Source: Desulfobacterales bacterium
GTDB taxonomy: Bacteria > Desulfobacterota > Desulfobacteria > Desulfobacterales > Desulfobacteraceae
Direction: 5' to 3'
Assembly (NCBI GenBank): GCA_022361095.1
Contig: JAKSBO010000585.1
Location: 1-14,696 of the forward strand
Length of the DNA stretch: 14,696 nucleotides
Shown: positions 3,726 to 14,696 of the stretch, in pieces
Position numbering within the stretch: position 1 is the stretch's first letter
How the letters are laid out: each line of letters starts with the position of its first letter
Position numbers and translations under genes: made by a program
Notes under the pieces: model-generated
Seen by the model: the letters and a program-made list of their open reading frames with translations, nothing else
Told to the model about the DNA's origin: nothing
The model's database searches: none

Positions 3726-4958
3726 ATGACGACAAACAAACTGGACAAAAGTCTTCGGACTGAACTTGCAGCGCTGGCCGCCGAAGGCAGGGCAAAAGCC
3801 CCTGAAAGGGTTATCACTGAATTTATTCCCCCAAAAAACGGTTCAGGCCCAAGATACCGGCTCCAGGGATCAGGCAAAGAATATATCCGTCTCAATTCAA
3901 ATTCCTATCTCTCTTTATCCGTCCATCCGGGCCTGATTCAGGCTGCGGACAAAGCCACCCGGGAATTTGGCGTGGGTCCCGGTGCGGTACGGTTTATAGA
4001 CGGTACATTTTGTTACCACGCGGCTTTGGAAAAACGAATTGCCGAATTTGTCGGCATGCCCTGTGCCAAAATCTTCAACTCGGCATATACATCCAATTGT
4101 GGTTTGGCTTTGTCCATCTCCAATGCCAAAACATACTGGATTGGGGATCAACTCAACCACAACTCAATTATCCGGGCCATGCGCATTTCAAATATTCCAT
4201 CCGGGAACAAGGGCATTTTCAAGCATAACGATATGGACGACCTGAAACGCTGCCTTGACGAAGCTGGCCCGGACATTGAACGTGTGGTGGTTATTTTTGA
4301 CGGAATTTTTTCCATGCGCGGCGATTTTGCCCCGATTGACGAAATTCTTGACATCTGCAGGCCCTATGAAGACAAGTTCAGAGACGGGGTTATAACTGTT
4401 GTGGATGATTCGCACGGGATTGGCGCCTATGGCGCAACAGGCCGGGGAACCAGCGAGTTTACAGGTGGCAGACCCGACGTCATTGTGGGTACTTTCGGCA
4501 AAGCCTTCGGGGTTAACGGCGGATTTATCGCAGCAAGTGAAACCATAATTGAAGCGATTCGCCAAAAGGCAGATACCTATATCTATACAAATCCCTTAAG
4601 TGTTGCAGACTGTGCTGCTGCCCTGGCGGCCATTGATATCTGTGACAGTGATCAGGGGCTGGATCTCCTGGATCACTTAGGCGCTGTAACCACAGCGTTC
4701 CGCGACGGCCTTAAGCGTATGGCCCTTGAATCGATTGACGGACCCCATCCCGTAGTGCCGCTCATGGTCAGGGATACCGACAGAACCCATGAACTGGTTA
4801 ATTTTCTATACGAAAACGGCGTGCTGGTCGTGGGTTTAACCTTTCCGGTTGTTCCCAGGGGAGATGAATCCATACGGTTTCAAATCAACGCCTGCCACAC
4901 CCATGCTGATATTGACTATGTCCTGGGACAGATCCGGTCTTTTAACAGTTCTTTCTAG
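3726..4958 (+). CDS. kbl: 2-amino-3-ketobutyrate CoA ligase (glycine C-acetyltransferase)
   Basis: This is a PLP-dependent alpha-oxoamine synthase of 410 residues. It cleaves 2-amino-3-ketobutyrate with CoA to give glycine and acetyl-CoA, taking the product of the adjacent Tdh. Visible marks are NSNSYLSLSVHPGL near residue 60, GAVRFIDGT, DQLNHNSIIRAMR, FDGIFSMRGDFAP, the PLP-stacking and ring-contact segment VVDDSHGIGAYG (226-237), and the Schiff-base lysine Lys259 in GTFGKAFG. The last third has FPVVPRGDESIRFQINACHT, close to Kbl. The protein is slightly longer than E. coli Kbl (398) and the similarity is moderate, so another oxoamine synthase (BioF-like or an autoinducer-type synthase) is possible on sequence alone; the tdh neighbour makes Kbl by far the likeliest. 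The ribosome site is weak (AGGG nine bases upstream). Its TAG stop lies inside the CTAG shared with the opposing gene. Confidence 0.88.
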   Translation: MTTNKLDKSLRTELAALAAEGRAKAPERVITEFIPPKNGSGPRYRLQGSGKEYIRLNSNSYLSLSVHPGLIQAADKATREFGVGPGAVRFIDGTFCYHAALEKRIAEFVGMPCAKIFNSAYTSNCGLALSISNAKTYWIGDQLNHNSIIRAMRISNIPSGNKGIFKHNDMDDLKRCLDEAGPDIERVVVIFDGIFSMRGDFAPIDEILDICRPYEDKFRDGVITVVDDSHGIGAYGATGRGTSEFTGGRPDVIVGTFGKAFGVNGGFIAASETIIEAIRQKADTYIYTNPLSVADCAAALAAIDICDSDQGLDLLDHLGAVTTAFRDGLKRMALESIDGPHPVVPLMVRDTDRTHELVNFLYENGVLVVGLTFPVVPRGDESIRFQINACHTHADIDYVLGQIRSFNSSF

Positions 4959-5923
4959 TTGATCAGGGTACTTGGCGGCTGTGACCTGTCTGAATCGGAG
5001 GTTTTGGAAAGACAGCCGATGGCGTCTTTGCTGGTTTCCTTTATTCTGAACATCAGTTGATCGGCCAGCTTGAGCAAGGCTCTTGCCTCAGTTGCATCGT
5101 CAGGAAAAGCTGCGATGCCGAAGCTTGCACTCAGTTGCACGTCACACCCCTTGTTTTTCAGGTATTTGGTCGCTTTCATCCGGGTTCGGATGGTTTCAGT
5201 GGTTTTTATTGCCTGGTCCTTGTCAAATCCAGGCAATACAATGACGAATTCATCCCCGCCATACGCCACCCCATAGCATGGCTCTGAAATTGATTCCATG
5301 ATGGTTTCGGCGATTTCCCGCAGTGCCCGGCTGCCGTTTAGATGCCCGCAAGTATCCACAACATATTTGAAATTGTCAATATCCATAAACAGCAGTGCAA
5401 AGGATCTGTTTTCAGCTTTACTGCTTTCAACCAACTGGTACAAGGCATCGTAAAGATAGCGCGTATTGTAAAGCCCGGTTAAGTCGTCATGAATCGTTAA
5501 ATGTTCCAGTCTTGCATTAATTCGTTTCATTTCCTTTCGCGAATGGGCCAGCTCAAGCTGTGTTTTTACGCGCACCAGCAATTCGGTCACATTAAACGGT
5601 TTCCCGATGTAGTCCACCGCACCGGCCTGGAATCCCTCCACAATACTTTTTCCATCGGTCTTTGCCGTCAGGAAAATGATGGGAATATCTTTTGTATCGG
5701 GTTTATCTTTAAGTTGCCGGCAGACTTCGAAACCGTCCATTTCCGGCATCATAACGTCCAGAAGGATCAGGTCCGGCGGTTCTTTGTCAATGCGTGCCAA
5801 AGCCGATTTACCATCCATGGCGATACTTACCTCATACTGAATTCCTAAAACCGTGGAAAGAATATCGATATTTTCCTGGATGTCATCTACCACCATTACC
5901 GTAAATTTTTTATCGTTATTCAC
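4955..5923 (-). CDS. Response regulator with GGDEF output (probable diguanylate cyclase)
   Basis: The 322-residue cytoplasmic protein has a receiver domain at about 8-125 and a GGDEF domain at about 145-305. The receiver is canonical: VVDD at 11-14, phospho-acceptor Asp56 in LLDVMMP, Thr86 in FLTAK and Lys108 in IGKPF. The cyclase has DDLTGLYN, the metal-binding MDIDNF (Asp181, Asp183) and an intact GGDEF at 222-226, so it should make cyclic di-GMP when phosphorylated. It lacks the RxxD inhibitory site five residues before GGDEF. The usual GHxxGD is GHLNGS, which may weaken activity. No kinase gene is nearby. It starts at GTG (5921-5923) behind AAAGG. The region just upstream is a repeat array in the same sense. 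The gene converges on kbl with both stops in one CTAG. Confidence 0.92.
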   Translation of the reverse strand: MNNDKKFTVMVVDDIQENIDILSTVLGIQYEVSIAMDGKSALARIDKEPPDLILLDVMMPEMDGFEVCRQLKDKPDTKDIPIIFLTAKTDGKSIVEGFQAGAVDYIGKPFNVTELLVRVKTQLELAHSRKEMKRINARLEHLTIHDDLTGLYNTRYLYDALYQLVESSKAENRSFALLFMDIDNFKYVVDTCGHLNGSRALREIAETIMESISEPCYGVAYGGDEFVIVLPGFDKDQAIKTTETIRTRMKATKYLKNKGCDVQLSASFGIAAFPDDATEARALLKLADQLMFRIKETSKDAIGCLSKTSDSDRSQPPSTLIN

Positions 5924-9120: not shown

Positions 9121-10005
9121 TTATCGATCCCTGAAAATGCTGGTGTTTCGACCGCTCTCCTTGGCTTCATAAAGGGTCATATCCGCCTCTTTTAACAAGC
9201 TGTCCAATGTATTGAATTCAGAAAACTTTCGTCCGATTCCGATTGAAATTGTGCAGGAAATGCTGCCCCCGTTATTTAAGGGAATACGGGCCTGGGAAAC
9301 GGTTTTCAGTATTTCAGAGACAATATCCATGGACCGTTCATGGGTCTGTGCCGTATACATGACGGAAAATTCTTCTCCGCCCATACGCCCGAATATTGCA
9401 TCCGGAGGCAAAATCTCTTTAATGACATGTGCCACTTTCTTTAAAACGATATCACCCACATCATGGCCATACTGATCATTTATCTTTTTAAGATGATCAA
9501 TATCAATCATCAGGACATATAGTTCCCGGCCTGATCTACTGAACATGCTCTTTCCAAGTTCAAAAAATCTTTTTCGGTTCAACATACCGGTTAACGTGTC
9601 CCGGGTGGATATGAAATCCAGTTTGCTGAGAACTTCCTGCAATCGAAGCTGGATTTTAACCCGGGCTATCAGTTGCCTGGGTTTAAAGGGCTTGGTTATG
9701 TAATCAGCCCCGTCCACGTCATATATTTTTTTGATACTTTTCTCGTCGGTATTGGCAGTCATGAAAATGACGGGGATATTTTGGGTATCGGGATTTTTTT
9801 TGAGTGCCGAACAAATCCTATCTCTATCAGTCATCAGCATGTCCAGCAGGATCAAGTCAGTCTGTTGGTTCCTGACCATCTCCAGCGCATCCTCTTGTGA
9901 GGTACAGGATAATACATTAAAATCCTGGAGAATGGCCAAAGCCGCCTCAATATCTTCTGTGACGTTGTCTATCACCAGGATGGTTTTACGTTTGTTTCTG
10001 TCCAT
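9121..10005 (-). CDS. Response regulator with GGDEF output (probable diguanylate cyclase)
   Basis: The 294-residue cytoplasmic protein has a receiver at about 8-122 and a GGDEF domain at about 132-292. The cyclase half is textbook: RDTLTGMLNRKRFFE, MIDIDHLKKINDQYGHDVGD (metal Asp168 and Asp170), active-site GGEEF at 209-213, and SIGIG. No RxxD inhibitory site precedes it. The receiver keeps Asp55 (LILLDML), Thr83 (MTAN) and Lys105 (ITKPF), but its acidic pair reads Asp13-Asn14 and the usual MMP after the phospho-site is LMT. Metal binding and phosphorylation may therefore be altered. The ribosome site is poor (TAAG), and the start lies 50 bases after the acidic-protein gene, so translation coupling within the operon is likely. 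It is the last gene of the co-directional block that begins with the ABC transporter. Confidence 0.92.
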   Translation of the reverse strand: MDRNKRKTILVIDNVTEDIEAALAILQDFNVLSCTSQEDALEMVRNQQTDLILLDMLMTDRDRICSALKKNPDTQNIPVIFMTANTDEKSIKKIYDVDGADYITKPFKPRQLIARVKIQLRLQEVLSKLDFISTRDTLTGMLNRKRFFELGKSMFSRSGRELYVLMIDIDHLKKINDQYGHDVGDIVLKKVAHVIKEILPPDAIFGRMGGEEFSVMYTAQTHERSMDIVSEILKTVSQARIPLNNGGSISCTISIGIGRKFSEFNTLDSLLKEADMTLYEAKESGRNTSIFRDR

Positions 10006-10055: not shown

Positions 10056-10751
10056 CTAATCCTTTTTCTTTTCCCAGAAATCACGGTTTTCCTGGAGAAT
10101 ATCATCTATATCACTATCGACCATCTCCTCGCCGGCTTCATTGCCTTCGTCTTCCAGGGCAAGATTCGTGAGTTCATCAACATCTATATTATGGTCATCT
10201 TCGGGCAAATCATTGATCTCTTCATCACCCTCTTCGGTGTCAATACCGTCAAGTTCGCCCTGGTCGATATCAAACTCAGATGTATCATCATCTTTGTCTT
10301 CAGGGCCTTCAATGTCGAATCCGGGCCCGGCATCCTGGGTTTCATCATGCGAATCCCCGGATTCCGGGGCCTCGGATTGATCTTCTTCGGATACCTCATT
10401 CAACGCGTCATCATAGTCAGGAAGGCCAATGGACAGATTATCGTCCAGGTCAAATGCCGATGTCTCATCTTCATCCGGCAAGTCTTGTTCCGGTACATTA
10501 GGTTCTTCGTCTTCAAGCAGGTTGCCGTTCCGGTCAAAAAGCAGGCTGCCGTCTAAATTAATTTCATAGTCAAGCCTGAACGCCACATCGTTGTCGTGCA
10601 CGACAATCCGGCCACCTTTGGGGGACAGCGCGCTTGCGGTGAGGCGTTTTGTGAGCAGATCCTTGACAGCTTCAAGGTCAAGATCTTTTTGAACAGATGC
10701 AATAAGATCTTTTTCTCCGTCCTGTATGACTTGGGGATCTGTAATTCTCAT
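10056..10751 (-). CDS. Very acidic protein with possible CheY-docking C-terminal peptide
   Basis: I do not recognise this 231-residue family. Residues 1-78 look folded: a helical DLIASVQKDLDLEAVKDLL segment, then strands GGRIVVHDNDVAFRLDYEI and GSLLFDRNGNLL. Residues 79-210 are a low-complexity Asp/Glu stretch, surely disordered, with three FD(I/L)(D/E) motifs near 100, 145 and 160. The last 20 residues regain pattern: MVDSDIDDILQENRDFWEKK. This end resembles CheY-binding peptides: CheZ ends VDDLLDSLGF, and FliM begins with SQAEIDALL. There is no signal peptide or membrane segment. AAGGAG lies six bases before the ATG, and the gene begins 15 bases after the receiver/binding-domain fusion stops, so the two are tightly linked. 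Docking to the neighbouring receiver is inference. Confidence 0.8.
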   Translation of the reverse strand: MRITDPQVIQDGEKDLIASVQKDLDLEAVKDLLTKRLTASALSPKGGRIVVHDNDVAFRLDYEINLDGSLLFDRNGNLLEDEEPNVPEQDLPDEDETSAFDLDDNLSIGLPDYDDALNEVSEEDQSEAPESGDSHDETQDAGPGFDIEGPEDKDDDTSEFDIDQGELDGIDTEEGDEEINDLPEDDHNIDVDELTNLALEDEGNEAGEEMVDSDIDDILQENRDFWEKKKD

Positions 10752-10766
10752 GCATAACTCCTTGGG

Positions 10767-12140
10767 TTAGATTTCGAATGCGGTGTTGGCAAAACTGGGT
10801 TCAATAAATTTTTCAAGGTCAATGATTTTACCGATTTCCATAACATCATGCATGTACTTTTGAATTTTATCAAGATCTGCCGCTTCAGGATAGAGACCGT
10901 CCCAGCGGATGGCCATGGGCTGGGAAAATACATTTTGAAGCACCTGGGGGTTCAGCCCCATTTTGCCTTCGGGATCTAAAAATTTTACGGCAACGTCTGC
11001 TGCCCGGGCCTTATCGTTTTCAATGTATTCACCGGTATCCACCAGCAGGGATACAAACTCCTGAACCGCTTCAGGATGTTTTTGAATAAAGTCCTTTTGC
11101 ATGGCCACAATACAGCAGGGGTGGTTTTCCCAGCGTGTGGCTGAATAAAACTCCAGGTTTCCGATCTCCCCTTTGATGGCTTTGGTGGCAACAGGTTCGG
11201 CAACCAAGAATCCGCCTACATCATCGTTTTCTTTCATAATGCCGGGCATTTTAATTGGGGGCACCACCTCAAAGCGTACATTAATCGCCTTTGTCCCAGG
11301 AACACCGGGTTTGAGCCCCAGTTCTTTTAAAAATTGATGTGCAAGCATGTGGTGAACCGACATTTTATGCGGAATATCAACGACTTTATACTTGTAGAAA
11401 CTTTGCAGCGAATCAAATCTGTGATCATAATGCCGGGAGCGCACAAAAGTGGAGCCGTTCTTGTGGGCAAACAGGATCAATTGAATCGGAGAGTCATAGG
11501 CAAACAAATCCATGGCAATGGGTGCCAGAACAAAGGCGCAGTCAATTTCCCCGCTTTCAAGGCCTTCCTGTATGGGGTTCCACCCTCCCATCAGGCTGGT
11601 GGACAGGTCGAAGTACTCAGGTTCCACATCCCCTTGGCTGATACGATGCTTCAAAGCACCCAGGGCAAGATGGTCAGTGATCTGTATGTGAGCGACATTG
11701 AGTTCAACACGGCCGCCGATAATAGATCTCTCTTTTGTTACCCGCTCCTTTTTTATCCCTCCGGAAAATGCGGTTTCAATGGCCTTTTTTATCTCGTGCT
11801 CATTGAACGGTTTCGGGCAATGGGCATTACCGCCGGCTTCCATGATGAGTTTCTGCTGGCCCATGTCTGCCTGGGCCGTGGCCATAATGAAAGGCAGATC
11901 CTTATATTCCTCAATGGCCCTCAGTTGTTTAAGAAACTCAAGGCCGTCTAATGTGGGCATGTTCCAGTCGGATATGACAAGATCAGGTTTTTCAGCCTTT
12001 ACTTTTTCCAGACCATCTGCACCGTTCACTGCCATAGCGAGGTTTGAAAATCCGGCTTTTGCCAAGATTTGTTTGAACATTATCCGCATGGTGCCTGAAT
12101 CATCAGCAACAACAATTTTGATATTGGGGTCTACCGCCAT
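10767..12140 (-). CDS. CheY-like receiver fused to NMT1/SsuA-type substrate-binding domain
   Basis: The 457-residue protein has two parts. Residues 5-127 are a complete CheY-type receiver: VADDSGTMR with Asp13/Asp14, phospho-acceptor Asp58 in VISDWNMP, Thr88 in MATAQ and Lys110 in CPKPF. Residues 147-457 are a periplasmic-binding-protein-like domain of the NMT1/SsuA/NrtA group (AHIQITDHLALGALK, MGGWNPIQEGLESGEIDCAFVL, HKNGSTFV, GGFLVAEPVATKA, WENHPCCIV). There is no signal peptide and no membrane segment, so the binding domain should sit in the cytoplasm. It aligns with the transporter's own binding protein at 13208-14410, sharing the NHPCC motif (339-343), NGS and the VAEP/VADP step. AAGGAG lies seven bases before the ATG at 12140; an in-frame ATG at 12224 falls in the repeat and is rejected. 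It lies downstream of the permease and 15 bases before the acidic protein. It probably senses a ligand and signals through the receiver; no DNA-binding or enzymatic output is present. Confidence 0.9.
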   Translation of the reverse strand: MAVDPNIKIVVADDSGTMRIMFKQILAKAGFSNLAMAVNGADGLEKVKAEKPDLVISDWNMPTLDGLEFLKQLRAIEEYKDLPFIMATAQADMGQQKLIMEAGGNAHCPKPFNEHEIKKAIETAFSGGIKKERVTKERSIIGGRVELNVAHIQITDHLALGALKHRISQGDVEPEYFDLSTSLMGGWNPIQEGLESGEIDCAFVLAPIAMDLFAYDSPIQLILFAHKNGSTFVRSRHYDHRFDSLQSFYKYKVVDIPHKMSVHHMLAHQFLKELGLKPGVPGTKAINVRFEVVPPIKMPGIMKENDDVGGFLVAEPVATKAIKGEIGNLEFYSATRWENHPCCIVAMQKDFIQKHPEAVQEFVSLLVDTGEYIENDKARAADVAVKFLDPEGKMGLNPQVLQNVFSQPMAIRWDGLYPEAADLDKIQKYMHDVMEIGKIIDLEKFIEPSFANTAFEI

Positions 12141-12172: not shown

Positions 12173-12364
12173 ATGTAACAGCTATGGGCCGGTTTGGTCC
12201 TTGATCCCCGGACTCTAAACCCACAACAAAACAAGAAAGTAACTCAGCAACTTATTGCAACTTTCTTATAACCGCCATGGGCTGGCCTGACATATCAACT
12301 GCCGGGCATAGCCCACAACAAACCTTGAAAGATCCGAGTAATTTACCCGGACTTTCTTATAAAA
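12173..12364 (-). repeat. Two tandem units of the 93-base structured repeat
   Basis: On the minus strand, two units are 93 bases apart (end motifs at 12274 and 12181). First unit: stem 1 at 12327-12356 (GAAAG/CTTTC plus TCCG/CGGA with one bulge and a minus-strand G.U) and stem 2 at 12279-12314 (GGGCT/AGCCC, GCC/GGC). Second unit: stem 1 at 12235-12265 (GAAAGT/ACTTTC, GCAA/TTGC) and stem 2 at 12191-12221 (GGTTT/AAACC, GTCC/GGAC). The array ends 33 bases before the start of the receiver fusion gene and together with 12394-12414 occupies nearly the whole gap between it and the permease, in the same sense as both. Confidence 0.8.
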
Positions 12365-12393
12365 AAAACTTTAAATCATATTTATCACGCATC

Positions 12394-12414
12394 GCCGGCC
12401 CGCGCCTAGCTGTA
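12394..12414 (+). repeat. Possible inverted end of the repeat overlapping the permease stop
   Basis: CCGGCCC, then five bases, then TAGCTGTAC matches the reverse complement of the array's other end at 12175-12192 (CCGGCCCATAGCTGTTAC) apart from a 4-base insertion and one missing T. The permease TAG stop (12406-12408 on the plus strand as CTA) lies inside it. The match is short and could be chance. Confidence 0.35.
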
Positions 12415-13245
12415 CCTGTGCTGCATCCTTTGAAAAACTCTGTCAAGGATAAATCCCAGTATACCGATGGCAATGATGACAGCCATAAGTTTGTCATATT
12501 CCATAGTATCCCTGGCATCGTTAATTAGATAGCCTAAGCCCGATGATACCCCTAAAAATTCCGCCGGCACTAAAACGATCCATGCAATCCCCATTGCAAA
12601 CCTGATGCTGGTCATCATATGGGGAATGGAATATGGGATAACAATCGTTTGAATGAGTTGGACGTTGCTGGCACCCTGGTTCAAAGCCATTTTTATCCAC
12701 TGAGGGTTGATGTCCATGACACCGACAGCCGTATTCAGTATTATAGGGCAAATTGTCGCCATTACAATCAAAAAGTGAACCGCAGACTCAAAGCTTGCAA
12801 ATAAAAGCAGTGCAATGGGCATCCAGGACAGGGGACTGATCATTCTTACGAATTGAATCGGCGAATATGTCAGCTTGCGAAGGCGTGCAAAAAAACCGAT
12901 CAGTACACCCAGTGGAAGTCCGATTGATGCAGATATGGCAATGCCTAGAACGATTCGACGCAGGCTTGCAAAAACCGACACCCAGAATTTGGTATTCTGG
13001 AAAGCATCTGCCAGAGCCGCAAGGGTCGGGCCGGGTAAAAATCCCTTAAAATGGTATAACTCCGGGCGGGTAAAAATAAATTGCGTCACAGCAATCCAGG
13101 ACAAGGCAAATATAAAAAATCCGGCTAATTCATATTTCCAACCTGACCATACCCGGTTAAAAAATAGAGAAACCCCGCTCCGAACACCTCTGTACGGATG
13201 ATTATCATTAATTGATTTCAACAATCTCTTCCCTGGTAAATTCAT
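12406..13245 (-). CDS. ABC transporter permease (SsuC/TauC/NrtB type)
   Basis: This 279-residue inner-membrane protein is a binding-protein-dependent transport permease. It has about six hydrophobic segments, starting near 38-58, 97-119, 140-160 and 160-177, with further segments toward the C-terminus. The cytoplasmic EAA loop that contacts the ATPase is ALNQGASNVQLIQTIVIPYS (187-206), with the conserved glycine at 191. LVPAEFLGVSSGLGYLI (225-241) is characteristic of the sulfonate/taurine/nitrate subfamily. The ATG at 13245 overlaps the end of the binding-protein gene by 38 bases, consistent with translational coupling; a later TTG start behind AGGGAAG is a possible alternative. The real substrate is unknown. 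The gene ends in TAG next to the repeat region. Confidence 0.92.
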   Translation of the reverse strand: MNLPGKRLLKSINDNHPYRGVRSGVSLFFNRVWSGWKYELAGFFIFALSWIAVTQFIFTRPELYHFKGFLPGPTLAALADAFQNTKFWVSVFASLRRIVLGIAISASIGLPLGVLIGFFARLRKLTYSPIQFVRMISPLSWMPIALLLFASFESAVHFLIVMATICPIILNTAVGVMDINPQWIKMALNQGASNVQLIQTIVIPYSIPHMMTSIRFAMGIAWIVLVPAEFLGVSSGLGYLINDARDTMEYDKLMAVIIAIGILGFILDRVFQRMQHRYS

Positions 13246-14410
13246 CTTTCATATCGCAATGGCAAAATCCTTTCATTCCCCCCATCTCGTCCAGAGCCTT
13301 TCTGACAAAGCGATCATCGACAAGCTGAGAAACGGCTGCTTGCGTATCAAGGGCGGTCAGAAAATCGGCGTTACCCTCAACCTTGGTTTTTTTCATCTGT
13401 TCCAAAATGAATCGGGTGGCCGATGGAAAAGGAAAAGGCTGAAAACCGATCCTTTCCACATGCCATTGTGGGTGTGTCAGTTCTTTGTCGGGGATGGAAC
13501 CAAAAACCCTGTTAAGAACGGATTCGTTAACCGGCAAAAAGCCTTCGCCGTCTTTGCTGAGCAGATGAGCGGTTTCCCTTGGATTCTGAAGGCACCAGGA
13601 TTGGGCTCTTACAATGGCGTTTATTGCCTTTTGAACGGTTATTGGACTTTCTTTAATGAGATGATCATTGGTTACGATAACGCAACAGGGATGATTTTTC
13701 CAAATATCTCCTGAGTATCGCATGATTTTTGCCGAAAATTTTTCCTGGGCAAGGGCATTGAAAGGATCGGCTACAATGAACGCGTCGACTTTTTTTCCTA
13801 AAAGTGCCTGGGGCATATCCGGGGGGGGCAGGGTAACCAGGTTCACTTCGTGTGCGGCTATATTTGAACCCGGCGGACGAATTACGGGTTCAAGGCCTTG
13901 GACCTGGAGGCCTAACTGCATGACCAGATTATGCATGGAGTACCATGAGGGAACAGCGACCTGCTTTCCCGAAAGATCTGCAAATCCGTTGATGCCGGAA
14001 TCAGCTCTGACTGTGACTGCGCTGCCGTTGGTATGATCCCAGGCCAAAACCGTGGCAGGAATATTCTGCTTGAATCGCATCCACACGGGAATGGGGAAGA
14101 GCATGTGAACCAGGTCAAATTTTCCGGTTAAAAACGATTCGGAAAGGATATTCCATGAACGCACCATGACCGGACGTTCCACGTCGAGCCCTTCATGGGA
14201 AAAATAACCAAGGCTATAAGCAACAAGCAGGGGCGTGGCGTCCGTAATCGGCAGATAACCAATTTTCAACGTTCTTTTTTTGCCCGCTGCCGGCCGCGGA
14301 AATACCATGGGTGCACAGGCCGCTACGCCTGCAGTGCGTATGGCTTTTTTTAAAAAAATTCGCCGAGAAATACGCTCAGGGCTTGCCGGCTTTACAGGGT
14401 TAGATTTCAT
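13208..14410 (-). CDS. Tat-type ABC transporter substrate-binding protein (NMT1/SsuA family)
   Basis: The 400-residue protein begins with a twin-arginine signal (SRRIFLKKA at 15-23, hydrophobic GVAACAPMVF, cut near AAG at 41-43), so it is probably exported already folded. The mature part is a NMT1/SsuA binding protein: LKIGYLPITDATPLLVAY (48-65), GLDVERPVMVRSWN, LTGKFDLVHML, NGSAVTV, DLSGKQVAVPS, DAFIVADPFNALAQ and the NHPCCVIV segment (239-246). Such proteins bring sulfonates, nitrate, bicarbonate or pyrimidines to their permease; nothing here fixes the ligand. The adjacent cysteines 242-243 and a C-terminal CHC (383-385) are unusual and might bind metal. The start overlaps the ATPase gene by 11 bases and the end overlaps the permease by 38, so the three form a tight operon. 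The binding domain of the downstream receiver fusion is a paralogue. Confidence 0.92.
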   Translation of the reverse strand: MKSNPVKPASPERISRRIFLKKAIRTAGVAACAPMVFPRPAAGKKRTLKIGYLPITDATPLLVAYSLGYFSHEGLDVERPVMVRSWNILSESFLTGKFDLVHMLFPIPVWMRFKQNIPATVLAWDHTNGSAVTVRADSGINGFADLSGKQVAVPSWYSMHNLVMQLGLQVQGLEPVIRPPGSNIAAHEVNLVTLPPPDMPQALLGKKVDAFIVADPFNALAQEKFSAKIMRYSGDIWKNHPCCVIVTNDHLIKESPITVQKAINAIVRAQSWCLQNPRETAHLLSKDGEGFLPVNESVLNRVFGSIPDKELTHPQWHVERIGFQPFPFPSATRFILEQMKKTKVEGNADFLTALDTQAAVSQLVDDRFVRKALDEMGGMKGFCHCDMKDEFTREEIVEIN

Positions 14411-14696
14411 TTGTAAGGTTCCTTTTGACTAAATGTGCGATTTTAAACCGATCAAGAATATCGTTTCTTAATGCTTTAATGACAGGGTCATGACGATTTC
14501 TGGGATAGGGAACCTCAATATTAAAAACATCTAAAATGACGGCAGGAGACCCTGCAAGAAGCACAATTTTATTTCCAAGCCGTATGGCTTCATCGATATC
14601 ATGGGTGACAAAAATCCCGGTAAAACTTTCGGACATCCACAGATTTATCAGTTCTTCCTGAATATGGGCCTGGGTAAAGGTGTCCAGGGAGGCAAA
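14400..14696 (-). CDS. ABC transporter ATPase, C-terminal part (5' end outside window)
   Basis: The frame is open to the window edge and shows the last 98 residues of an SsuB/TauB/NrtD-type ATPase. The D-loop reads FASLDTFTQAHIQEELINLW, and the H-loop follows as GIFVTHDIDEAIRLGNKIVLL, with the switch histidine in VTHD. Walker A, the signature motif and Walker B lie beyond the window. The tail (EVPYPRNRHDPVIKALRNDILDRF, shown here only in part) is the usual C-terminal extension of this subfamily. It energises the permease and binding protein that follow. An internal ATG at 14636 is not a start, because the D-loop lies upstream of it in the same frame. Confidence 0.93.
   Translation of the reverse strand, partial: FASLDTFTQAHIQEELINLWMSESFTGIFVTHDIDEAIRLGNKIVLLAGSPAVILDVFNIEVPYPRNRHDPVIKALRNDILDRFKIAHLVKRNLTNEI

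Follow-up and report, generated by a model that had tools for sequence, protein, structure and literature searches.

Which process is served by a protein that joins a CheY-type receiver and a transporter-type binding protein (SBP) in one chain and is encoded beside an ABC transporter? The question is raised by a gene from a Desulfobacterales bacterium (family Desulfobacteraceae), lying in a stretch of 14,696 nucleotides that we analysed as a whole and refer to as the window (Table 1). A reading made from these letters only had proposed a switch of the NasS/NasT kind, in which ligand that has entered the cell would change what the receiver can bind. We approached the question through the domains of the protein, the descent of its binding half and the gene neighbourhoods and domain composition of its relatives.

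A receiver and a binding domain in one chain

The gene, which runs from an ATG at 12140, with AAGGAG ahead of it, to 10767, encodes both domains in a single frame, as proposed from sequence. Pfam places Response_reg at residues 9–122 (84.2 bits, cut-off 30.2) and NMT1_2 (PF13379) at residues 147–384 (87.4 bits, cut-off 24.7). The receiver, which contains an SDWNMP motif, is closest to CheY, both by its best NCBIfam score and by its top PDB matches, which are CheY proteins. However, CheY is a lone receiver, and the fusion, with its extra binding domain, reaches 82.3 of the 189 bits set as cut-off for that family.

Table 1. Features of the fusion gene and its operon in the window
Feature	Position	Strand	Basis or remark
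Receiver-SBP fusion, 457 aa (receiver, linker, binding domain)	10767..12140	(-)	Pfam, conservation, structure model, Foldseek
Receiver domain, residues 9-122 (D58, T88, K110)	11775..12116	(-)	Pfam, conservation, NCBIfam, PDB
Signal-less binding domain, about residues 143-457	10767..11714	(-)	Pfam, conservation, Foldseek, alignment to exported SBP
ABC permease, same operon	12406..13245	(-)	Pfam BPD_transp_1, 69 bits
Exported (RR-motif) NMT1_2 SBP of the transporter	13208..14410	(-)	Pfam, NCBIfam, HHalign vs fusion
ABC ATPase, cut by window end	14400..14696	(-)	NCBIfam
Acidic protein	10056..10751	(-)	15 nt downstream of fusion

We evaluated conservation in an alignment of 76 sequences, hand-picked from the matches as the set for structure prediction and including the window protein. 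D58, T88 and K110, previously taken as the sign of an intact receiver, are invariant throughout, and so is D14; judged by these residues, the receiver should be phosphorylatable, like that of CheV. The binding domain carries the landmarks HKNGS, SVHH, PPIKMP, VAEP and ENHPCC, and W187, H226, G229, S230, S261, M298, A314, E315, P316, W337 and H340-P-C-C343 are likewise invariant; the landmarks of the binding cleft, whose loss would have spoken against a sensor, are kept. The structure predicted from this alignment has a mean pLDDT of 91.7 and a pTM of 0.88, values at which the two domains and the way they pack together can be considered confidently predicted. We saw no export signal in the fusion and the model places the first receiver strand at residue 9, consistent with the proposed lack of a signal peptide. 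A Pfam scan of the fusion likewise found no ANTAR, DNA-binding or enzymatic domain, as had been claimed, and no CheW domain.

Among PDB structures, Foldseek ranks first the zinc-containing structure of a binding protein, 3un6 (E 2.4e-21, TM by target 0.88), and places CmpC and NrtC chains with cytosolic regulatory domains at ranks 2–5, before NrtA, TauA, SsuA, CmpA and Thi5. The PF13379 binding-protein fold is therefore indicated both by a score over the curated cut-off and by structure. These matches also bring up a different use of the fold, as an enzyme or metal holder of the Thi5 or MqnA kind with the receiver as its switch; the zinc of 3un6, the Thi5 enzymes among the matches, and an invariant Cys-Cys pair with several invariant His would all fit. 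We consider this highly improbable, because the Cys-Cys and the His of HPCC/HxNGS are common to the exported SBP, which argues for ligand binding, and because it leaves the association with che genes described below unexplained.

Kinship of the binding domain and its transporter operon

The binding domain had been described as a paralogue of the exported SBP encoded next to it, with NHPCC, NGS and VA(D/E)P in common. Alignment confirms the shared landmarks (W, H-x-NGS, S-x-H, VA-x-P and HPCC) and the two are matched by profile-profile comparison with a probability of 99.5 (HHalign), although the exported neighbour is not the nearest kin. Two stand-alone signal-less proteins of the same genome are 38% and 34% identical to the binding domain of the fusion, against only 29% for the neighbour. 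Likewise, in a tree of 62 out of 147 prepared domains (5 odd-length frames were dropped in preparation), with supports from the quick SH-aLRT method and long branches on some stand-alone rows, the signal-less binding domains, fused or not, form one fully supported clade with the exported ones outside it, and the receiver-fused domains a fully supported clade within it. Together, identities and tree rule out the neighbour as closest kin, and the separate clades indicate that it is an older relative.

Even so distant, the two may bind similar compounds. Of 301 aligned residues 72 are identical; these cover 34 of the 65 columns with at least 97% conservation among the receiver-fused proteins and 38 of the remaining 236. 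Although conserved positions tend to agree more often anyway, the agreement at the 65 columns suggests a related ligand for both proteins. Both families show P-C-C in place of the P-K-K or P-G-K of the NrtC/CmpC domains, with a Lys that we take to contact nitrate in NrtA, which makes nitrate or bicarbonate an unlikely ligand on sequence grounds.

The full operon consists of a signal-less stand-alone SBP, the ATPase, the exported SBP, the permease, the fusion and the acidic protein, in this order. The exported SBP has an RR motif and scores 15.8 bits with the NCBIfam Tat model, just below the cut-off of 16.7. The truncated ATPase appears to continue on another contig of the genome (G000:C582, locus L011), because the peptide FASLDTFTQAHIQEELIN is common to both, and this contig encodes the stand-alone SBP (L011:539-1495; NMT1_2, 63.2 bits). 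The latter shows HPGS for HPCC and HRAGS for HKNGS and, considering also its low conservation, it may have lost ligand binding. Membership of the Sao transporters (SaoX is treated in PMC13188914) was discarded, because the NCBIfam scores for SaoX and SaoP fall far under their cut-offs. Downstream of the operon, the window also encodes two receiver-GGDEF proteins (4955-5923 and 9121-10005; Pfam).

We identified 61 loci with relatives of the fusion, 47 of them close (at least 68% identity, plus one Spirochaetales locus at 51%) and 14 at 41–47% identity. The Spirochaetales copy is a receiver-SBP fusion on a 3787-base contig of a metagenome-assembled genome (L082:1046-2425). Another protein, P0131 (1068 aa), is a tandem chain in which the receiver and NMT1_2 stretches each occur twice. 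Within the Desulfobacteraceae, 60 of 86 genomes carry the fusion at 68–95% identity (own genome included, with 100%) and, as these include genomes in a single contig, we can rule out that it originated from an assembly error, the concern raised in the first reading. Transporter and fusion go together: 60 genomes have both, 24 have neither and two have the exported SBP only, in both cases on short contigs that end near this gene (L156 and L157). Among five proteins compared with those of a Desulfobacula locus (L047), the ATPase being left out, the fusion is the best conserved, with 85% identity (88% in the binding half and 82% in the receiver) versus 69% for the permease, 64% for the exported SBP, 46% for the acidic protein and 32% for the stand-alone signal-less SBP.

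The expectation that the fusion always sits beside an ABC operon was largely, but not fully, borne out. The permease gene is directly upstream and on the same strand in 41 of the 47 close loci. Of the six others, one was a gene masked by the ORF caller (L046), which hid true genes in places (also in L127 and L131), and two are at contig starts (L071 and L099); in L072 and L077 the fusion belongs to other gene clusters, and the last is the Spirochaetales locus. The real exceptions to the expectation are L072, L149 and L077, all in chemosensory or kinase clusters.

The acidic protein follows the fusion directly in 43 of the 47 close loci (including L099, with a cut fusion) and has a conserved N-terminal part, a long acidic stretch and a conserved C-terminal end of the (D)DIDDILKESRDFWEKKK type, which is presumably reminiscent of the helices by which CheZ and FliM dock on CheY; its predicted structure is a poor model. 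Its gene persists in a genome that has lost the transporter-fusion operon (L153:7037-7540, in G061). Because some genomes that lack the fusion still have it, the acidic protein is perhaps not a dedicated partner of the fusion, and we set it aside as such.

The gap between permease and fusion is 265 nt in the window versus 41–61 nt in many relatives, and contains an interspersed repeat (12200-12370) with units of approximately 92 nt; counting this copy, the genome has 46 matches to the repeat at 75–100% identity. No part of the window matches Rfam over the gathering scores, so we discarded a riboswitch or ANTAR target in this gap. This bears on the possibility of a one-chain regulator of the NasS/NasT type, in which ligand frees the receiver and a partner controls expression of the operon. 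NasS, a predicted cytoplasmic sensor that resembles NrtA but has no signal sequence, holds a receiver-ANTAR partner (PMC3795266), and the fusion is similar in coupling a signal-less NrtA/SsuA-like sensor to a receiver and in being encoded with its own transporter. However, NasS and NasT are two proteins with an ANTAR output and nitrate or nitrite as ligand, while the fusion is one chain lacking ANTAR and DNA-binding domains. With Cys-Cys in place of the Lys of NrtC/CmpC-type relatives, the NasS/NasT nitrate site is probably not kept in the fusion. As such a regulator would also have no use for the CheW domain of the relatives or for the che genes next to them, we regard it as very unlikely.

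Control of the transporter itself is the main rival to the chemosensory role argued for below. In such a scheme, the cytosolic binding domain would sense accumulated substrate and regulate the ABC transporter encoded beside it, as proposed for the C-terminal domain of NrtC/CmpC, and phosphorylation of the receiver would provide a further level of control. It is favoured by the position of the window form directly behind the permease, by the joint presence of transporter and fusion across the family, and by CmpC and NrtC, whose C-terminal regulatory domain is cytosolic, SBP-like and close to the fusion in both sequence and fold. In CmpC, this domain is described as presumably regulatory and solute-binding (PMC11349869). 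That domain is, however, fused to the transporter ATPase, whereas here the binding domain is fused to a receiver and the ATPase is a separate gene.

CheW-bearing relatives and chemosensory gene clusters

Relatives of the fusion at 41–51% identity mostly have an added C-terminal CheW domain. Matches to this receiver-SBP-CheW form came from 13 other genera in a sample of 394 further genomes of the phylum, 20 of which have it (one on a cut contig); within the family, it occurs in six genomes (L142-L147). Pfam scans of five relatives having CheW (L088, L084, L127, L143 and L132) gave 112.6–134.4 bits for this domain and, among the best 120 protein matches listed for the CheW form, 119 have CheW and NMT1_2 and 118 also the receiver, according to precomputed Pfam annotation. 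Of the 14 loci at 41–47% identity, 13 had their genes labelled by similarity to our seeds (all but L096), and 10 of these showed CheW. The proteins of L085 and L094 end without CheW and that of L087 runs to the contig end; L085 lies inside a contig of 54,953 bases, and not all members of the CheW clade therefore carry this domain. Outside the family, the relatives in the 20 other genomes have frames of 645–734 aa, with a single exception of 420 aa, where the match is cut. These long frames favour that CheW was lost in Desulfobacteraceae, although the tree gives no direction to the change.

Several relatives are encoded among chemosensory genes. For instance, in L127 (G280) the order is MCP, receiver-SBP-CheW, MCP, CheR, CheB, CheA, receiver and CheD (Pfam), with an HDOD gene after CheD by similarity to our seeds. 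Three receiver-SBP proteins without the permease context, with 68–73% identity to the window protein, make up a subclade with a tree support of 94, which is not starred. In L072 (73%), CheW, CheA, CheD, HDOD, CheX, CheB and CheD precede the fusion, which is followed by a MerR-like protein, a signal-less SBP, CheR, a receiver and a second CheA; in L149 (73%) the fusion comes after CheA, hemerythrin, CheD, HDOD, a receiver, CheX, CheB, CheR and CheD (both by Pfam). The third, in L077 (68%), has hybrid kinases and two CheA-type proteins in its vicinity, one a CheA with Hpt, dimer, ATPase and CheW domains and the other CheA-like. Pfam bore out the seed labels for the che-cluster genes of L072, L149 and L127. 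In L083 (2369-5936), the hook genes FlgD and FlgE lie approximately 2 kb before a receiver-SBP-CheW gene. By similarity to the 22 seeds, no che gene was labelled near the receiver-SBP-CheW loci L083, L084, L089, L092 and L130, which is weak evidence of absence because genes were labelled only by similarity to these seeds.

A stand-alone signal-less SBP accompanies all three forms, being present in most operons, in L072 and beside the receiver-SBP-CheW gene of L132. Additionally, the genome of the window has a signal-less SBP between hybrid histidine kinase genes (L010:4003-4950). A MerR-like protein adjoins the signal-less SBP in L009 (4001-5734) and L072 (9713-11026); these MerR-like proteins are 40% identical to each other, and that of L009 has many acidic DDLSxLI-like repeats.

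The operon form also has a chemosensory neighbour in many genomes. No che gene lies beside the fusion within the window, and the operon lacks a CheD neighbour in L042-L044, from named Desulfobacter species, and in the contig of the same genome that appears to continue the operon. A divergent CheD gene is, nevertheless, found beside the transporter operon in 21 of the 30 loci with at least 900 nt of upstream sequence (these neighbours were checked with Pfam at three loci); in addition, L051 has a divergent CheD with a 74-codon ORF in between. L045, a locus on a contig that matches one genome of the window's genus group, also has CheD. CheD acts at receptors (PMC3513319).

These neighbourhoods weigh against control of the transporter. 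The transporter operon was not seen beside the che-cluster copies or in the labelled loci of the CheW form, and one genome (G052) keeps ATPase, exported SBP and permease together (L151) while its receiver-SBP protein sits apart in a che cluster (L072, assigned to G052 because its contig position matches G052:C23). We thus consider it unlikely that the fusion serves to govern the neighbouring transporter.

CheA (PF02895) occurs in all 60 family genomes that hold the fusion, and none of the 14 CheA-less genomes of the family has it (Fisher p 2e-9, with genome relatedness not removed). Within genus g4, 13 genomes have both, none has the fusion only, 3 have CheA only and 10 neither (p = 0.0001); the corresponding numbers for genus g8 are 6, 0, 4 and 3, a difference that is not significant (p = 0.19). 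The link is in part lineage background, because a nifH control (over cut-off) goes in the same direction, with 31 of 72 CheA genomes versus none of the 14 CheA-less ones (p = 0.0015). Neither is it specific to the fusion, as the exported SBP shows the same association (62 of 62 holders with CheA). FliM was found in 53 of the 60 fusion holders versus 8 of the other 26 family genomes; flagella are an uncertain output, because the remaining seven holders, including the genome of the window, have no FliM match.

Predicted role and closest precedents

The frequent occurrence of CheW in the relatives, or of CheA, CheB, CheR and CheD genes around them, points to chemosensory signalling rather than to an output-less switch of the NasS/NasT kind. 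We predict, with a probability of roughly 60%, that the fusion is a cytosolic ligand sensor of a chemosensory (CheA) system. A cytosolic sensor that speaks to CheA is the simplest common denominator of the operon, che-cluster and CheW-bearing forms. SBP-type domains are also described as sensor domains of cytosolic signalling proteins (PMC9602780).

For this cytosolic sensor we propose the following mechanism. The ABC transporter would import the compound recognised by the exported SBP, and this compound or a related one would, once in the cytosol, be bound by the receiver-fused domain. As its two lobes close, this domain could then shift the receiver packed against it. CheA would phosphorylate D58 of the fusion, with ligand occupancy setting either the readiness of this phosphorylation or the binding partners of the phosphorylated receiver. 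In the longer relatives, CheW would tether the sensor to the array of CheA and receptors, which would make these proteins a kind of CheV equipped with a nutrient gauge. The window form has no CheW and may work in solution, either as a competitor resembling CheY or as a phosphate sink, so that the imported compound would tune swimming or another output of CheA.

The closest functional precedents are CheV and CheWS. CheV resembles the long relatives in having a receiver and CheW in one chain, and its phosphorylation is described as deciding the binding to some receptors (PMC12691637). The relatives differ from it in their receiver-SBP-CheW order, with a binding domain of approximately 310 residues in the middle, and the window protein differs in being without CheW. 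CheWS from Treponema denticola is, likewise, an intracellular small-molecule sensor fused to CheW and anchored in the array, which detects SAM in the cytosol (PMC10653840). Its sensor is, however, a CheR-like domain and not a transporter-type SBP, and the word receiver is absent from the main text of that article. The window protein has no such fusion to CheW, and its longer relatives show the domain order of a putative cytosolic ligand-binding domain fused to CheW. In the open-licence literature we found no description of receiver-SBP or receiver-SBP-CheW proteins, although the supplement of PMC10653840, with 30 further CheW architectures, may show the latter form.

In teaching, chemotaxis is mostly presented as a response to what lies outside the cell. 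Tentatively, and with odds that we put a little short of even, the family could represent a transport-coupled chemosensory route that dispenses with a chemoreceptor: a transporter-type SBP would have lost its export signal and been joined to a CheY/CheV chassis, which would let the CheA array detect the compound once it is imported, with receiver-SBP-CheW proteins anchored in the array and receiver-SBP proteins soluble after having shed CheW. In all, the receiver-SBP(-CheW) family of sulfate reducers would be the second cytosolic metabolite sensor in the chemotaxis machinery, after CheWS and with a different architecture, and the window form would tie a specific ABC transporter to this machinery, making ligand and output testable on purified proteins.
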